From contig WASS01000020.1 of assembly GCA_009712635.1 (NCBI GenBank), positions 753,208-817,207 on the forward strand: a stretch of DNA of 64,000 nt, written 5' to 3'. The notes under the pieces were generated by a model. That model was not told the origin of the DNA. It did not search any database and saw only the letters and a program-made list of their open reading frames with translations. Position numbers and translations under genes: made by a program. Positions 23,820 through 30,005 of this stretch are shown one piece after another. This DNA is from Hungatella sp. (GTDB taxonomy: Bacteria > Bacillota > Clostridia > Lachnospirales > Lachnospiraceae). How positions within the stretch are numbered: the stretch's first letter is position 1; each line of letters begins with the position of its first letter.

Positions 23820-26258
23820 TTATTTTACTTCAAATATATCCTCGGCATAATTTACGGATGCCATTGCGTCCCGGCAATACTGGTCTGCACCGATTGTCAT
23901 TGCATACTCTTTTGTGAGAACTGCGCCTCCGACCATAACCTTTGCAAAAGGCGCCTGGGTCCGAAGCTGGCGTATGGTCTCTTCCATGCTGGGAACTGTG
24001 GTTGTCATAAGAGCGCTTAACCCCACCAGCTTCACATTCCGTTCAATTGCCGTTTTTACAATGGTTTCAGGCGGAACATCTTTTCCAAGATCCAGTACTT
24101 CATAGCTGTAATTTTCTAAAAGCACCTTAACAATGTTTTTGCCGATGTCGTGAATGTCTCCCTTTACGGTGGCAAGTATGACAGTTCCCTTTTTCTTTTC
24201 CTCTGCACCGCTTTGTGCCAGTTTCTCCTTAATAACCTCAAAAGCTGCCTTTGCCGCCTCTGCGCTCATCAGGAGCTGGGGAAGAAATACCGTTCCCTTC
24301 TCAAAACCTTTTCCAACCTCATTGAGGGCGGGAATCATCTCTTCATTAATAATGGTAAGAGGTTCCCTGTTTTCCAGAAGTTCAGAAACTGCAGCATACG
24401 CTCTGTCCTTTAATCCTTTTTTTATACTCTCCCCTAAGGATAAATCCGTTCCGCTTACCCCGGCAGCTTTCTGATCCCCTGACTGTCTTTTCACCTCACC
24501 AAGAACAGCCACATTCCCGCTGTAGATGCTGATATAATTGCTGCACTGAGGATCTAAGTCTGCAAGCACACGGAAGCTGTAGTAAGAGCGCATCATGGCC
24601 TCTGAGTTTGGATTTATAATGGCGGCGCTTAACCCGTTTTGCAAAGCCATGGTAAAGAATGCTGCATTGACAATCTCTCTCTGGGGAAGACCAAAGGAAA
24701 TATTGGATACTCCAAGTATGGTTTTTCCCTGTAATTCATCCCTTACCCGTCTTACGGTCTCAAGGGTTGTAATGGCACCTTTGCTGTCAGAGCTCACTGT
24801 CATACACAAAGCGTCAATGATGATATCTTCTTTGCCGATTCCATATCCTGCTGCGGTATCATAGATCTTTTTCGATACTGCAATTCTTCCCTCAGCTGTT
24901 TCCGGAATACCGTCTTCGTCAAGAGCAAGAGCAACCACCACTCCTCCGTACCGTTTTACAAGAGGGAAAATGGCTTCCATCACTTCTTTCTTTCCGTTGA
25001 CGGAATTTATGAGCGGCTTACCGTTATAGATTCTCATGGCACGTTCCATGGCAGTCATATTGGAGGTGTCAATCTGTAAAGGCAGGTCAATGATACTTTG
25101 CAGTTCTTTCACTACTTCTACCATCATGGCTGGTTCATCAATCTCAGGAAGTCCCACATTCACGTCAAGCACATGAGCTCCGTTATCCTGCTGGAGAACG
25201 CCCTCTTTTAAGATATACTCCAGATTGTGATCCTTTAACGCCTGCTTAAATTTAGCTTTTCCCGTTGGGTTAATCCGTTCTCCAATAATAACCGGATCCT
25301 GATCTATAACAACAGCCTGGGCATAGGAGGAAATCACCGTCCGATTCTTTCTTTCCGGAAGTCTGACCGGCAGATCCTTACACAGAGCTGCCATTTTTTC
25401 AATATGCTCCGGCGTGGTTCCGCAGCAGCCGCCGATGATACAGGCTCCCGCCTCCACGATCTCCTTCATGACTCTGGCAAATTCATCGGCATCAATGTCA
25501 TAAACCGTCTTTCCGCCCTCACTTCTTGGAAGTCCGGCATTGGGGTTTACAATGACAGGAAGAGAAACCACCTTCATAATGTCTTCCAGAATGCCTTTCA
25601 TCTGAACAGGGCCAAGACCGCAGTTAATTCCCAGGGCATCCACTCCCAGCCCTTCTAAAAGAGCTACCGTAGACTCCACATTTCCCCCGGTTAAAAGCTT
25701 TCCTTTGTCATCAAAAATCATTGTAACGAAAACAGGCAGGCTGCTGTTTTCTTTTGCAGCCAGAACCGCTGCTTTTGCTTCATAGCTGTCGCTCATGGTT
25801 TCAATAAGAATAAGGTCTGCCCCTTCCCGTTCACCAATTCTAACCACCTGGGAAAACAACTCATAGGCATCTTCAAAATCAAGATCTCCCAGAGGCTTTA
25901 GAAGTTTGCCCGTAGGACCGATATCAAGGGCTATTGCTCCTTTTGACCTTCCAGAGGTATATGCGGCGGTATCCACCGCCTCCCTGGCATTCTTCATGGC
26001 AGCAGTCACAATCTGCTCTAAATCAAATTCCTTGTCCTTATTATATTTTAAACCATTCGCACCAAAGGTATTGGTTTTAATCATATCTGCACCGGCTTCC
26101 AGATATTCTCTGTGAAGCTTTACGATTAAATCTGAATGGGTTACATTCCAGGTTTCCGGCAGCTCACCGGGTTTTAAGCCATTGGCCTGTAAAAGGCTGC
26201 CCATGCCGCCGTCAAAAAAAAGGATTCTTTCTTTCAATTTCTCTAGTATCGCTGTCAT
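23820..26258 (-). CDS. metH: B12-dependent methionine synthase lacking the reactivation domain
   Basis: An 812-residue MetH. The homocysteine domain (1-300) has zinc Cys residues in NCGLG and GGCCGT; the methyltetrahydrofolate pterin domain (about 310-590) opens with GERINPTG; the cap and cobalamin domain (about 630-812) has GDIHDIGKNIV with the cobalt-binding His. The C-terminal SAM-binding reactivation domain of E. coli MetH is absent; a separate gene 30 nt upstream encodes it. The enzyme methylates homocysteine to methionine. The frame opens 6 codons earlier, but the ATG at 26258, with GGAGG 5 nt upstream, is preferred. Confidence 0.94.
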   Translation of the reverse strand: MTAILEKLKERILFFDGGMGSLLQANGLKPGELPETWNVTHSDLIVKLHREYLEAGADMIKTNTFGANGLKYNKDKEFDLEQIVTAAMKNAREAVDTAAYTSGRSKGAIALDIGPTGKLLKPLGDLDFEDAYELFSQVVRIGEREGADLILIETMSDSYEAKAAVLAAKENSSLPVFVTMIFDDKGKLLTGGNVESTVALLEGLGVDALGINCGLGPVQMKGILEDIMKVVSLPVIVNPNAGLPRSEGGKTVYDIDADEFARVMKEIVEAGACIIGGCCGTTPEHIEKMAALCKDLPVRLPERKNRTVISSYAQAVVIDQDPVIIGERINPTGKAKFKQALKDHNLEYILKEGVLQQDNGAHVLDVNVGLPEIDEPAMMVEVVKELQSIIDLPLQIDTSNMTAMERAMRIYNGKPLINSVNGKKEVMEAIFPLVKRYGGVVVALALDEDGIPETAEGRIAVSKKIYDTAAGYGIGKEDIIIDALCMTVSSDSKGAITTLETVRRVRDELQGKTILGVSNISFGLPQREIVNAAFFTMALQNGLSAAIINPNSEAMMRSYYSFRVLADLDPQCSNYISIYSGNVAVLGEVKRQSGDQKAAGVSGTDLSLGESIKKGLKDRAYAAVSELLENREPLTIINEEMIPALNEVGKGFEKGTVFLPQLLMSAEAAKAAFEVIKEKLAQSGAEEKKKGTVILATVKGDIHDIGKNIVKVLLENYSYEVLDLGKDVPPETIVKTAIERNVKLVGLSALMTTTVPSMEETIRQLRTQAPFAKVMVGGAVLTKEYAMTIGADQYCRDAMASVNYAEDIFEVK

Positions 26259-26288
26259 ACATTCCTCCATCTCCACTCAGTTTCTATC

Positions 26289-26930
26289 TTATCTCCGGTA
26301 TGCACAGTCCTTTTTCCCGCAGGATTCACACCCTTTTATCTCACACCGGTAAGGCTTCTTACTGACTCCCATCACTGCTGTCACGGATTTGGAGGGAGTC
26401 ATAAGCAGGCTTTCCGTAAGCATAATGCCAATTCGCTTGGGTGTTTCCAAAACTGTTGTTATATCTTTTTGACATTCCAGGGAAAAATCACCGTAGCCGG
26501 GACTGAATCTGGGTCTTAAATAAAAGCCCCTGGCCTCATATTCCTGTTTCAGTCTGCGGTTTTCCTGGTCACAGTATTCTTCAATCACTGCAGCCGCAGC
26601 TGCCTGCATAATGACAGCCCTGCTCATCTGCAGTCTGGTGTATTTGTGAAGCAGCACATCCACCCCGGTTCCCAGTGTTGCCGCAAATAACAGAACTTCT
26701 TCACAATCCGCCAGATTTTTACTTAAATTCCGGCTTTTTGTTCGAAAGACCGTAAAATCAATCTCATTCTCAGGAAGCAGTGTTAACGGAAATGCCCTGT
26801 ATATACATTTGGGTGATGCTGCAGCCAGAAGTTCTTCCAATACTTCCTCGACCAGAGCACTGATCTGTTCATCGCTTTCCTTATTTCCATATCCTAAATA
26901 TCTAAGAATCTCCTTCCGGCTGATCTCCAT
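26289..26930 (-). CDS. Stand-alone methionine synthase activation-domain protein
   Basis: A 213-residue protein matching the vitamin B12-dependent methionine synthase activation domain. The stretch RPRFSPGYGDFSLECQ corresponds to the SAM-binding RxxxGYpACPd region of full-length MetH, and a Cys-rich tail (CEIKGCESCGKKDC) may bind metal. It likely supplies in trans the reductive methylation that rescues oxidised cobalamin. It lies 30 nt before metH on the same strand. GGAGGG precedes its ATG by 6 nt. Confidence 0.87.
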   Translation of the reverse strand: MEISRKEILRYLGYGNKESDEQISALVEEVLEELLAAASPKCIYRAFPLTLLPENEIDFTVFRTKSRNLSKNLADCEEVLLFAATLGTGVDVLLHKYTRLQMSRAVIMQAAAAAVIEEYCDQENRRLKQEYEARGFYLRPRFSPGYGDFSLECQKDITTVLETPKRIGIMLTESLLMTPSKSVTAVMGVSKKPYRCEIKGCESCGKKDCAYRR

Positions 26931-27000: not shown

Positions 27001-27858
27001 TTACAGTATCTGAGAAAGATTTTCCTTGATCTTTAATGCCACATCAGGCTTATTCATAGAATAAACATGAATGGCATTGACACCGTTTGCAATTAAATCA
27101 ATGATCTGCTCCGTTGCATAGGCGATTCCTGCCTGCTTCATGGCTGCCGGATCTTCCCCAAACCGGTCAACGATCGCTTTAAACCGGGTGGGCAGATATG
27201 TTCCGGACAGCTGGCAGCTGCGTATGATCTGCCTCACATTGGTTACAGGCATAATTCCTGCAACAACCGGGACTGTAATTCCCTTTTCCCGTATCCGGTA
27301 TAAGTAATTATATAAGATGTTATTATCGAAAAACATCTGGGTGGTTACGAAATCGCATCCTGCTTCCACCTTCTGCTTTAAGTAATCCATATCAATGGTT
27401 TTGTTTGCTGATTCCACATGACCTTCCGGATAACAGGCAGCTCCGATACAGAAATCACCGGTTTCCTTAATTTCCCTGATCAGCTCTGATGCATAGTTGT
27501 ATTCCCGCTTATCCGGGGCATCTGCCGGGATATCACCTCTTAATGCCAGCACGTTCTCTATCCCTGCTTCCTTTAGCTCACCTAACACCTGACCCACCTT
27601 TTCCTTCGTTGAAGATACACAGGTCAAATGGGCCAAAGCCGTAACATGATATTCATGATGGAGGGCAGAAGCAATGTCTACGGTATACTTACTGGTTCCT
27701 CCGCCGGCGCCGTATGTGACGCTCATAAAGGCAGGCTTCAGCTTTGCTATCTCAGCAGCCGCCTTTTCAACAGAATCGTACTTGTCCTCTGTCTTAGGCG
27801 GAAACACTTCAAAAGATAAGGTCGGCTTTCCCTGGCTCAATATATCTGTAATCTTCAT
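27001..27858 (-). CDS. metF: Methylenetetrahydrofolate reductase
   Basis: A 285-residue MetF, a FAD-dependent TIM barrel reducing 5,10-methylene- to 5-methyl-tetrahydrofolate, the methyl donor for MetH encoded next. It shows SFEVFPPKT near the start, SVTYGAGG near 46, LRGDIP near 105 and TQMFFDN near 173. AGGAG lies 9 nt before the ATG. A weak promoter-like pair (TTGCGG and TAAAGT, 17 nt apart) is visible just upstream; no SAM riboswitch is seen in the 86-nt gap. Confidence 0.94.
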   Translation of the reverse strand: MKITDILSQGKPTLSFEVFPPKTEDKYDSVEKAAAEIAKLKPAFMSVTYGAGGGTSKYTVDIASALHHEYHVTALAHLTCVSSTKEKVGQVLGELKEAGIENVLALRGDIPADAPDKREYNYASELIREIKETGDFCIGAACYPEGHVESANKTIDMDYLKQKVEAGCDFVTTQMFFDNNILYNYLYRIREKGITVPVVAGIMPVTNVRQIIRSCQLSGTYLPTRFKAIVDRFGEDPAAMKQAGIAYATEQIIDLIANGVNAIHVYSMNKPDVALKIKENLSQIL

Positions 27859-27944
27859 TCTGTCAATCTCCTATCCTCTGCTTCTTTTTATTTTAACACT
27901 TTACCATAAAAAACTTTTTCCCGCAACAGGTAGTATTCCAAATT

Positions 27945-28814
27945 TTACTGGCCGGTAAAAATCCTGGCAAGGGGAGAGCCTCCTGGAAGGATTAAGGTAT
28001 TCCCATTTCCTGCAAGTGATGTCTTAGCTGCTTCCAACGACCGCACAAAGGAATAGAAATCTGATCTTTGGGGATCATGATAAGCTTCCGCCATAATTCT
28101 CATATACTCTCCTTCTCCCTCTGATGTGATTGATGCTGCCTTTGCCTGAGCATCAGAAATACTGATTGCTATTTCACGGTCTGTTGTATTTTGTATCTTT
28201 TTCGCCTCTGCCTGGCCTTCTGCTGTAAATGTTGCAGCTATTTTGGCACGCTCTGAAATCATTCTTTCATATACGGCTGTTTTATTATCTGCCGGAAGAT
28301 CCAGGCGCTTTGTTTCCACTGCCAGAAGACGGATTCCATACTGGCCCATGTTTTCTCCTACATTATCCATGATCGCCTGAGAAAGCTCCCCATCACGGCT
28401 GCTTATGACTTCATTCTGTGCCATACTGCTGATCACATTCTTTACTGAATTATAAACCACCGTATCAATTCTGCTCTCTGCACCAGAAAGGGATGAATTC
28501 AGTGACTGGGCAAATTTCAGAGGATCCTCAATCCGCCAGAGCACGTAGCTGTCACTGAGCATGGTTTTTTTATCCATTGTAATCACGTCAGAAGCTGCAA
28601 GATCGTAAATTAAGATCTGCTTTGGAAGGGTATCTGCTGTCTGGATAAATGGTATCTTGTAAGAGATGCCCGGGGAATCAATGACTCTCTCCACTCTTCC
28701 AAACTGTCTGATCAGCTTAAATTCATTTTCCTTTGTTACCACTACCCCTCCGAAAAGCACCGTTACAGCAGCTGCCGCAATCACAATTCCTATGGCTGTT
28801 TTTATCTTCTTCAT
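27945..28814 (-). CDS. hflC: HflC-like SPFH protease-regulator subunit
   Basis: A 289-residue SPFH/band-7 protein with an N-terminal membrane segment (about 7-25), an SPFH domain (about 25-190) including a KTMLSDSYVLWRI core, and an Ala/Glu-rich coiled coil (about 190-250). With HflK it forms a large membrane cage around the FtsH protease, modulating turnover of membrane proteins. The ATG overlaps the hflK stop (ATGA), so translation is coupled. Confidence 0.9.
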   Translation of the reverse strand: MKKIKTAIGIVIAAAAVTVLFGGVVVTKENEFKLIRQFGRVERVIDSPGISYKIPFIQTADTLPKQILIYDLAASDVITMDKKTMLSDSYVLWRIEDPLKFAQSLNSSLSGAESRIDTVVYNSVKNVISSMAQNEVISSRDGELSQAIMDNVGENMGQYGIRLLAVETKRLDLPADNKTAVYERMISERAKIAATFTAEGQAEAKKIQNTTDREIAISISDAQAKAASITSEGEGEYMRIMAEAYHDPQRSDFYSFVRSLEAAKTSLAGNGNTLILPGGSPLARIFTGQ

Positions 28815-29788
28815 TCCTGATTCTCCTTCTTATCACTGGCCGCTCCTCCTGTAAAGCTGTCAAGGGGGAGGATGGTACTGGTCTGATCCGTACCGTCAAT
28901 AATCACTTTCATGTTTGGAAGCACATCTTCCATTGTTTCATAAAACATTCTTTTTTTAGTCACTTCCGGGTTTTTCACATATTCCTCGTACATGGCATTG
29001 AATTTCGCTACCTCTGCACTGGCTTCATTAATCCTTTTTGCCTTGGAAGACTCCGCTTCCTGAAGAATCTGATCTGTCTGGGCGGTTGCCTCCGGAAGCT
29101 TTTCATTGCGGTACTTATTTGCATTGTTGATGGCAGTCTCTTTTCCCTGTTTGGCTGTCTCCACTGCCTTAAAGGCTTCCATTACCTCCTTTGTCGGCGG
29201 TTCTGAATCCTGTATGGTGACATTGATCACTGTAAGGCCTACATTGTGTTCTGCCAGTTTTGACGTGATCATTTCCTTTACTTTGGACTGAATCTCATTT
29301 TTTCCATTGGTCAGCACAGAGTCCACATCGTAGCTGCCGATGACTGTTCGGATACTGCTTCTTGATACATTCTGCAGGATGATAAGGGGATCCCTGGAAG
29401 CATAGATTGCCTTTACCGGATCTGTGACTTTATACTCCACAAAAAAGTCCACGTTTACAAAATTATAATCCTTTGTAATCATCAGGGAATCTTCTTCCTT
29501 GCTCTCATTGTCACTGGGATCGTAGCCGACGGCAAATCCCTGTATGGTGGTATTTACCTTATGCACATTCTGTACAAAGGGGATCTTAAAATGCAGTCCC
29601 GGCTCTGCAACCGTTCTTGGAATCCCTAACGTGGTCACTACCGCCTGTTCCTGCTCCTGCACATTATAGACAGAGCCAAATGCAATCACAGGAACCGCAA
29701 CAGCGAGTAAAACCGCTATTCCGGATTTCTTTATCACTTTCCGGATTTTTCTTAATTGCTCCGTTCCTTTTGGGTTAACTGTTTCCAT
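28811..29788 (-). CDS. hflK: HflK-like SPFH protease-regulator subunit
   Basis: A 325-residue SPFH/band-7 protein: short basic N-terminus, membrane helix at about 22-42, SPFH domain (about 43-215) with VDFFVEYKVTDP, then a coiled coil with NKYRNEKLPEATAQTDQILQ. It pairs with HflC and FtsH. AGGAAATAAAGG precedes the ATG. The gene lies directly downstream of a consensus promoter and a yybP-ykoY riboswitch with terminator, so expression is probably switched on by manganese. Confidence 0.9.
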   Translation of the reverse strand: METVNPKGTEQLRKIRKVIKKSGIAVLLAVAVPVIAFGSVYNVQEQEQAVVTTLGIPRTVAEPGLHFKIPFVQNVHKVNTTIQGFAVGYDPSDNESKEEDSLMITKDYNFVNVDFFVEYKVTDPVKAIYASRDPLIILQNVSRSSIRTVIGSYDVDSVLTNGKNEIQSKVKEMITSKLAEHNVGLTVINVTIQDSEPPTKEVMEAFKAVETAKQGKETAINNANKYRNEKLPEATAQTDQILQEAESSKAKRINEASAEVAKFNAMYEEYVKNPEVTKKRMFYETMEDVLPNMKVIIDGTDQTSTILPLDSFTGGAASDKKENQE

Positions 29789-29834: not shown

Positions 29835-29880
29835 ATAAAAAAAGACCTTTGCCGGTACCTGACGGTATCAGTAAAAGTCT
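29835..29880 (-). terminator. Riboswitch-controlled terminator upstream of hflK
   Basis: On the minus strand a 17-bp stem with two mismatches (29864-29880 with 29843-29859, loop 29860-29863) is followed by seven T. The 5' strand of the stem contains AGACTTTTAC, which is also the 3' strand of the aptamer base helix, so the two structures exclude each other. Confidence 0.85.
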
Positions 29881-29966
29881 TGACATTTCATAAGAATGCG
29901 GATAAATCTCTTTATCGTTCTGACGCACGCTTATCCAGCCTTTCGGTGGAAGCTACTCCCTTTTGC
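29871..29966 (-). promoter_or_regulatory. yybP-ykoY family (manganese) riboswitch aptamer
   Basis: The minus strand carries the family hallmarks: AAAAGGGAGTAGC at the 5' end and TCAAGACTTTTAC at the 3' end, which pair to form P1. Between them are a GAAA-capped hairpin (TCCACC/GGCTGGA), a helix GTGCG/CGCAT with the internal loop TCAGAAC, and GATAAA-GAGA-TTTATC. In known members Mn2+ binding stabilises P1 and prevents terminator formation, giving an ON switch. The assignment rests on matching the remembered family consensus. Confidence 0.85.
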
Positions 29967-29976
29967 GATTGGGACT

Positions 29977-30005
29977 ATTATATCAGAACGATTATTTTCT
30001 GTCAA
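29977..30005 (-). promoter_or_regulatory. Perfect consensus promoter for the riboswitch-hflKC unit
   Basis: TTGACA (30000-30005) and TATAAT (29977-29982) on the minus strand with a 17-nt spacer; transcription would start about 10 nt before the aptamer. Confidence 0.9.

Follow-up and report, generated by a model that had tools for sequence, protein, structure and literature searches.

A P4-less metal riboswitch of the yybP-ykoY type probably controls hflK-hflC in Hungatella and recurs across the Lachnospiraceae

The protein pair HflK-HflC is a modulator of FtsH, and the question raised by its genes in Hungatella sp. is what signal sets their expression. In the window (the whole 64,000-nt stretch analysed here, WASS01000020.1 753,208-817,207, whose positions are used throughout), both genes lie on the minus strand, as does a leader of ~90 nt upstream of hflK, held between a promoter and an intrinsic terminator. 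The initial annotation read this leader as a manganese-sensing yybP-ykoY riboswitch. We find that it is probably a transcription-ON metal riboswitch of that type, in a three-way-junction form without helix P4, which would raise hflK-hflC. Both gene names held up, each protein scoring over its curated cut-off (TIGR01933, TIGR01932), and hflC and the end of hflK have 4 bases in common. The perfect sigma-70-type TTGACA-17-TATAAT promoter was found at 30005-29977, the single 12/12 match between 23700 and 31400, and the sequence pair said to frame the helices, 5' AAAAGGGAGTAGC and 3' TCAAGACTTTTAC, was located at 29964-29952 and 29883-29871. The locus comprises the following features:

29977..30005 (-), promoter TTGACA-17-TATAAT, with TTGACA at 30005-30000 and TATAAT at 29982-29977 (12/12 match)
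29960..29964 (-), 5' strand of the P1.1 switch helix, AAAAG, from pairing across 129 leaders
29954..29959 (-), loop L1, GGAGUA, from sequence, with 29957 the counterpart of A10 (role of L1 after the available part of PMC6754395)
29952..29953 (-), 5' strand of P1.2, GC, in which a C-U mismatch with 29883 takes the place of the second pair
29934..29950 (-), P2 hairpin, UCCA-CC-GAAA-GG-C-UGGA, from sequence, with two-sided changes at 4/4 pairs
29891..29933 (-), P3 arm, with P3.1 pairing 29933-29924 to 29900-29891 and the P3.2 hairpin at 29916-29901
29923-29917 (-), loop L3, UCAGAAC, with 29921 the counterpart of the Mn2+-sensing A41
29884..29890 (-), short linker of 7 nt replacing helix P4, giving a three-way junction
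29873..29883 (-), P1.2, L1' (AAGA) and the P1.1 3' strand (CUUUU), common to the terminator
29837..29881 (-), intrinsic terminator overlapping the P1.1 3' strand, from fold prediction and comparison of leaders
28811..29788 (-), hflK, FtsH modulator with an SPFH domain (TIGR01933 233.7 bits, cut-off 159.4; Band_7)
27945..28814 (-), hflC (TIGR01932 166.9 bits, cut-off 134.4)
27001-27858, metF, downstream of hflC
26289-26930, small ORF with a B12-dependent activation domain (Met_synt_B12 match)

In the minimum-energy fold the terminator hairpin spans 29881-29842, followed by a U-tract; the hairpin described earlier is thus present, with 16 pairs rather than 17, and, as had been proposed, it shares a strand with the base helix, namely the 3' one. 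Judged by one set of criteria, this re-use of the P1.1 strand recurs in 126 of 129 related leaders, compared with 46 of 129 when the downstream part is shuffled, and the 75 nt upstream hold a promoter with no more than one mismatch in 72/129 leaders and in none of the 129 shuffled controls. Folding of the 130-nt leader is weak evidence when taken alone (z -2.19; 6/200 shuffles equally good). For the bare aptamer, an energy model without tertiary and metal contacts predicts a best fold of -18.3 kcal/mol, stabler than the drawn three-way junction at -12.1 kcal/mol.

Comparison with relatives was more informative. The leader, used as a DNA query against 200 genomes of the family, retrieved clear relatives from other genera, which share its core and precede different genes. 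From 13 relatives, the window leader among them, we built a covariance model (R1) with a hand-set structure. An RNAalifold consensus from a MAFFT alignment (A1) was discarded for this purpose: it was poor because P2 and P3 were misaligned in A1, and the structure was therefore set by hand. The anatomy was then read from 132 loci (30 from the R1 scan, 100 more among the matches it listed, and also L007 and L001), which gave 129 distinct leaders once identical ones were removed. The anchors demand GGAGTA and RGAC, so the constancy of both is built in. The first five positions of P1.1 pair in 129, 129, 127, 126 and 125 of the 129 leaders. P1.2, whose pairing is no anchor requirement, shows clean covariation across the set: its first pair is GC in 97 and AU in 32, and its second CG in 116, UA in 8, UG in 4 and mismatched in 1, with the qualification that two P1.2 pairs sit in model R1, so that the choice of loci leans towards pairing. 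Among 62 distinct rows of the 65 relatives in a second alignment (A2), 92.2% of pair cells were paired, compared with 78.5% in shuffled controls and 29.0-45.9% when the structure was slid along the alignment; two-sided changes occurred at 17 of 24 pairs (shuffled mean 12.1), and the covariation score of 0.378 (shuffled 0.136) was reached in 0/500 shuffles. A2 was fitted to the model structure, which favours these statistics. Comparative support for the leader structure is strong.

The junction itself is the distinctive part. From the 3' start of P3.1 to P1.2 there are 17-18 nt in 99/129 leaders, which leaves no space for P4 and therefore implies a three-way junction. The window leader has P2 and P3 only, as in the three-way-junction sub-type, and does not form the four-way junction with P4. 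It carries an L3 loop with the UCA adenosine between P3.1 and P3.2, as well as the features of the wider yybP-ykoY class: L1 GGAGUA with its 3' partner strand and P1.2, and, from sequence and prediction, a P1.1 strand that competes with the expression platform. By a loose test, in which any place in the middle part counts, G[UA]CA is present in 126/129 leaders; counts for L3 are rough, as the P3 parser misplaced this loop in several rows, including L035, L051, L061, L068, L007 and L120 and further L124, L128, L143, L145, L159 and L162. In form the leader is a three-way junction lacking P4, and its L3 loop resembles that of Lactococcus lactis.

The standard Rfam model does not recognize it. A scan of the window returned no family at its gathering score, and RF00080 gave no match to the leader in a 401-base slice even at E<=10; a score below the family's threshold of 45 bits had been named beforehand as grounds for rejecting the yybP-ykoY assignment, and the leader did fall below it. 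In its own genome the best RF00080 score was 19.7 bits, at another place. The model also detected the L. lactis RNA, whose aptamer has been crystallised, in one loose control and not in the other. In RF00080 alignments the model spans L1, P2, P3 with L3, and P4 and then ends, without the 3' strand of P1 (GCAAGAC), which suggests that P4-less RNAs score low because the last helix is unfilled and that strand is missing from the model. Core sequence, helices, covariation, the design of the switch and the target genes place the leader in the yybP-ykoY type; the Rfam model does not.

With R1, the picture of abundance changes. It matched at least 132 of the 299 family genomes scanned (E<=0.01), a lower bound since at most 13 candidates per genome were scored, whereas RF00080 found 9 of the 299 at the same E-value and none over its cut-off. 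In the wider phylum, R1 matched 38/398 genomes at E<=0.001 and RF00080 43/199, 6 of them over cut-off. Several phylum loci were matched by both models (for example G352:C49, G425:C129, G305:C77 and G385:C36), so the two look like one continuum. An exact 23-base pattern occurred in at least 119 stretches of named GTDB genomes, where rough arithmetic with equal base frequencies predicts fewer than one by chance. The P4-less riboswitch of the Mn2+ type is thus real and widespread, and hflK-hflC is a recurrent target. In a wider sample, one leader (L223) lies in an assembly labelled Geobacter (UBA4057), which may reflect a mis-sorted contig or a transfer.

How closely does the leader track hflK? 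The initial annotation suggested looking for the same aptamer upstream of hflK in other Lachnospiraceae, and the pairing does recur in other genera. A leader was present in the fetched stretch at 5 of the 30 best hflK loci, drawn from 39 genomes with hflK among 120; the other 25 had none. In a tree of 45 HflK rows (20 of which have a leader, one of them from an assembly labelled Faecalibacterium, L306), the leader label needs 9 changes, at least 7 of them forced by well-supported branches, compared with a shuffled mean of 15.0 and 0/500 shuffles as low. The leader is clustered on the tree, yet was gained or lost repeatedly. Of the 20 loci with a leader, 19 have hflC behind hflK; the 20th stretch ends too early. 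As for the suggestion that the unit might extend to metF, in the window metF lies 86 nt behind hflC (27859-27944), with no listed terminator on that strand in between; among the hflK loci checked, some of whose stretches end too early to tell, this arrangement was otherwise seen only in L110, a close relative. The interval 23820-26930 also holds an ORF of 818 aa that by eye resembles methionine synthase; the separate small Met_synt_B12 ORF precedes it, and metF precedes that.

The window's own copy has one blemish. Its P1.2 forms one of two pairs, and as the other 128 leaders compared all lack the C-U mismatch, the window's switch could be a weak one. The mismatch would fit a leader decayed into a fixed attenuator of hflK, and there is a possible parallel: in G033 (L009, G033:C27, ~1500-1545; the same place as L343), an hflK 77% identical to the window's has a riboswitch-type terminator directly behind the upstream gene. 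A search of this locus for the aptamer found none, and L343 gave no match, so in L009 the sensor seems to have been lost in nature. We nevertheless hold decay in the window to be quite improbable, as the leader there keeps L1, L3, P1.1, P3 and its perfect promoter undamaged and scores 88.6 bits with R1, albeit as one of the 13 sequences used to build it. Taken together, the RF00080 score, the P1.2 mismatch, the stabler alternative fold and the 25/30 hflK loci without a leader speak against the metal-riboswitch reading.

The Hungatella genome offers further copies. Exact-core pattern searches, which miss leaders with a changed core, returned 10 places, 3 of which we judged to be leaders by their helices; they precede hflK, a P-type ATPase and mntP. 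The ATPase leader on C9 (L001), which the R1 scan missed, has a UCAACA loop and no P4, and the incomplete ATPase has a PMCA-type best match below cut-off. The mntP leader on C13 (L394) has a UCAACA loop and a P4-like hairpin (by eye). The other seven places look like chance, as a reversed control pattern was commoner (14 and 24 places).

Which genes do these leaders precede? First ORFs were called heuristically and named from one representative per cluster; 2 of the 132 loci gave none, leaving 130. P-type ATPases lead with 44, followed by a small protein without a Pfam match (22, with YccF in the fetched DNA at 18 of them), Na+/Ca2+ exchangers (19), HflK (12), oxaloacetate decarboxylase beta (OadB, 7), flotillin-like proteins (4), CNNM/CorC (3), YccF (2) and 19 others, including one further SPFH protein. 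A second, named sample of 121 sites among the matches listed, labelled by BLASTP to the first and overlapping it (some contigs are shared, and the HflK pair L258/L361 is identical), gave 56 P-ATPases, 18 OadB, 9 of the small protein, 8 HflK, 7 exchangers, 5 flotillins, 4 CitMHS and one each of CNNM, Na/Pi, YccF and a penicillin-binding protein, with 6 unlabelled and 4 without an ORF. The small protein (~140-155 aa, e.g. L094:521-982) bears a GGG motif and is often near YccF; one representative had no Pfam or NCBIfam match. In L067 and L094, both of which precede it, L3 reads UCU rather than UCA by eye, a change at the Mn2+-sensing adenosine. Wider samples placed leaders before an M48 peptidase (L197, L223), an NfeD protease (L208), LemA (L183 by Pfam, L201 by eye), GDT1 (L203) and MntP (L166, L169).

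Carriers of other ions raise the thought that the fold has switched ligand, for instance to Na+, H+ or Mg2+. OadB at 7/130 and at 18 of the 121 named-sample sites among the matches listed, CitMHS at 4 of the latter, and Na/Pi, sodium-alanine and CitMHS carriers, single or few among first ORFs, fit such a change. However, the leaders retain the bases seen in contact with the metal in the crystal structures, and OadB also stands behind leaders with the UCAACA loop (L164, L167, by eye), so we consider a switched ligand extremely improbable. OadB is a frequent target of both L3 types (L060 and L045 by cluster; L164, L167, L187 and L191 by eye).

A harder question is whether the metal is manganese. 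At 30 mntP loci we found 18 real leaders, all with a UCAACA L3 by eye, and 11 loci had none; automatic labels for the 18 (11 M, 5 C, 2 unknown) came from a pattern that was too narrow. Two matches, L375 and L427, were rejected as false, lying inside the mntP frame. At 30 exchanger loci there were 4 CGUCA-type leaders, 2 of the UCAACA/GCAACA type (L410, L418), 1 belonging to an adjoining mntP (L422), 1 false match and 22 without. As exchanger loci carry both types, the split of L3 by target is not strict. TerC stands behind leaders with a CGUCA-type L3 (L202 by Pfam; L193, L198, L204 and L218 by eye), and neither MntP nor GDT1 was seen behind such leaders in the samples examined. In five places (G122:C77, G083:C72, G017:C13, G066:C97 and G056:C4), mntP adjoins a Na+/Ca2+-type exchanger on the same strand, an adjacency which suggests that the exchanger handles Mn2+ too.

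The same switch might therefore answer mainly to Ca2+ in this L3 sub-type, with HflKC responding to calcium load. Many targets are transporters of Ca2+ type: the exchanger representative is over the TIGR00367 cut-off, and the P-ATPase representative scores best with subtype models of Ca2+ pumps, PMR1-type on top, although all fall below cut-offs and only the general P-type model is passed. PMR1-type ATPases transport Mn2+ as well, however, and the TerC genes behind CGUCA-type leaders also weigh the other way; the UCAACA loop of all 18 mntP leaders found at the 30 loci (by eye) sides with calcium. The three-way-junction aptamer of Streptococcus pneumoniae mgtA, in the available part of PMC9495176, has a higher affinity for Ca2+ than for Mn2+, but in transcription in vitro Mn2+ activates it more than Ca2+ does; PMC11434433, as far as available, terms this riboswitch Mn/Ca2+-sensing. 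Against calcium, too, crystals of the L. lactis aptamer, whose L3 is almost identical, contain bound Mn2+ (PMC6754395, available part). On balance we think calcium unlikely as the main signal. The manganese sensing first proposed for the hflK leader is likely from its core and L3, tempered by the Ca2+ binding of the relative with this junction; because mgtA binds Ca2+ besides Mn2+, and because Ca2+-type targets and UCAACA mntP leaders stand against TerC behind the CGUCA type, the ligand is no more than likely to be Mn2+.

A bolder reading, unlikely in our estimation, would give Clostridia two RNA metal sensors per cell: a UCAACA form on MntP, and a P4-less CGUCAnnnC form, sensing Ca2+ or the sum of Ca2+ and Mn2+, on Ca2+-type pumps and a membrane quality-control set (HflKC, flotillin, YccF, M48/HtpX-like peptidase, LemA and NfeD). 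If this were so, an RNA that senses metal load directly would govern hflKC, whose product manages FtsH, and the CGUCAnnnC form would be a calcium riboswitch.

Under the preferred reading, a metal riboswitch that turns hflK-hflC on, L1' and the P1.1 3' strand would pair into the terminator at low metal and transcription would stop before hflK. Mn2+, and perhaps Ca2+ too, would bridge L1 and L3 and stabilise P1.1, and P1.1 so held would block the terminator and let hflK-hflC be transcribed. HflKC might then, by modulating FtsH, help to deal with membrane and translocon proteins that metal load has damaged or supplied with the wrong metal; as HflK-HflC modulates FtsH, raising it with metal load would be sensible. 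The leader's architecture, its covariation, the shared strand, its spread and the genes behind it are shown here, whereas ligand, direction of switching and benefit are inferred. On the regulatory side, this picture fits work in Bacillus subtilis: in the available text of PMC10550928, TerC genes are Mn exporters, and of the Mn exporters MeeF and MeeY (meeY under a Mn riboswitch), MeeF co-purifies with FtsH, HtpX, FloT and FloA and MeeY with FtsH and FloA, and FtsH is essential when both exporters are missing, placing Mn exporters beside FtsH, HtpX and flotillins. More generally, a known riboswitch type appears far commoner in Lachnospiraceae than RF00080 indicates, and beyond metal exporters it also serves genes of membrane protein quality control, which suggests that these bacteria tie metal load to the upkeep of membrane proteins. 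Whether metal load turns on an FtsH modulator through RNA alone is now a directly testable question. In the open-licence literature we found no report of a yybP-ykoY riboswitch with hflK or of one in Lachnospiraceae, matches for a riboswitch with hflK and hflC were unrelated by title, and for a yybP-ykoY riboswitch with htpX the match listed was the TerC paper; the aptamer type is already known, and its extent here and its membrane quality-control targets are what we did not find there.

How, finally, does the leader compare with characterised metal riboswitches? In the L. lactis and Xanthomonas oryzae aptamers, as described in the available parts of PMC6754395 and PMC11087558, Mn2+ bridges L1 and L3 through the N7 of an invariant adenosine (A41 and A48, respectively), this bridging stabilises P1.1 and blocks the terminator, and an A-to-U change at the sensing adenosine abolishes the Mn2+ effect. 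The L. lactis yoaB and X. oryzae riboswitches, so far as these sources describe them, resemble the window leader in L1, L3 and P1.1, and in L. lactis the terminator is likewise common to P1.1. The window's GGAGUA, AAGA, UCA and P1.1 correspond to the metal-binding parts of the crystal structures, with an L3 of UCAGAAC here, UCAAUUC in L. lactis (PMC6754395, available part) and ACAUACU in X. oryzae. Unlike the window leader, which lacks P4, both of these RNAs form a four-way junction, and their targets are exporters.

The closer precedent is streptococcal. Martin et al. reportedly described the S. pneumoniae mgtA riboswitch in 2019 as a yybP-ykoY RNA with a three-way junction, and given that precedent this junction type is not new. 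RF00080 shares L1 and the P3/L3 region with the leaders here and differs in P4 and the P1 3' strand. The consensus of RF02617 (SSRC10, Streptococcus) has the same core letters as these leaders, and SSRC10 may be the mgtA leader. In Amedibacillus dolichus, a sub-threshold SSRC10 match (L371, 34.2 bits) has a UCAACAU loop and precedes an apparent P-type ATPase (both by eye). Compared by description rather than by sequence, and as far as the available accounts go, mgtA shares with the leaders here a three-way junction and a P-type ATPase target; it differs in that the target here is hflK-hflC, and the leaders here belong to Lachnospiraceae and other Clostridia.
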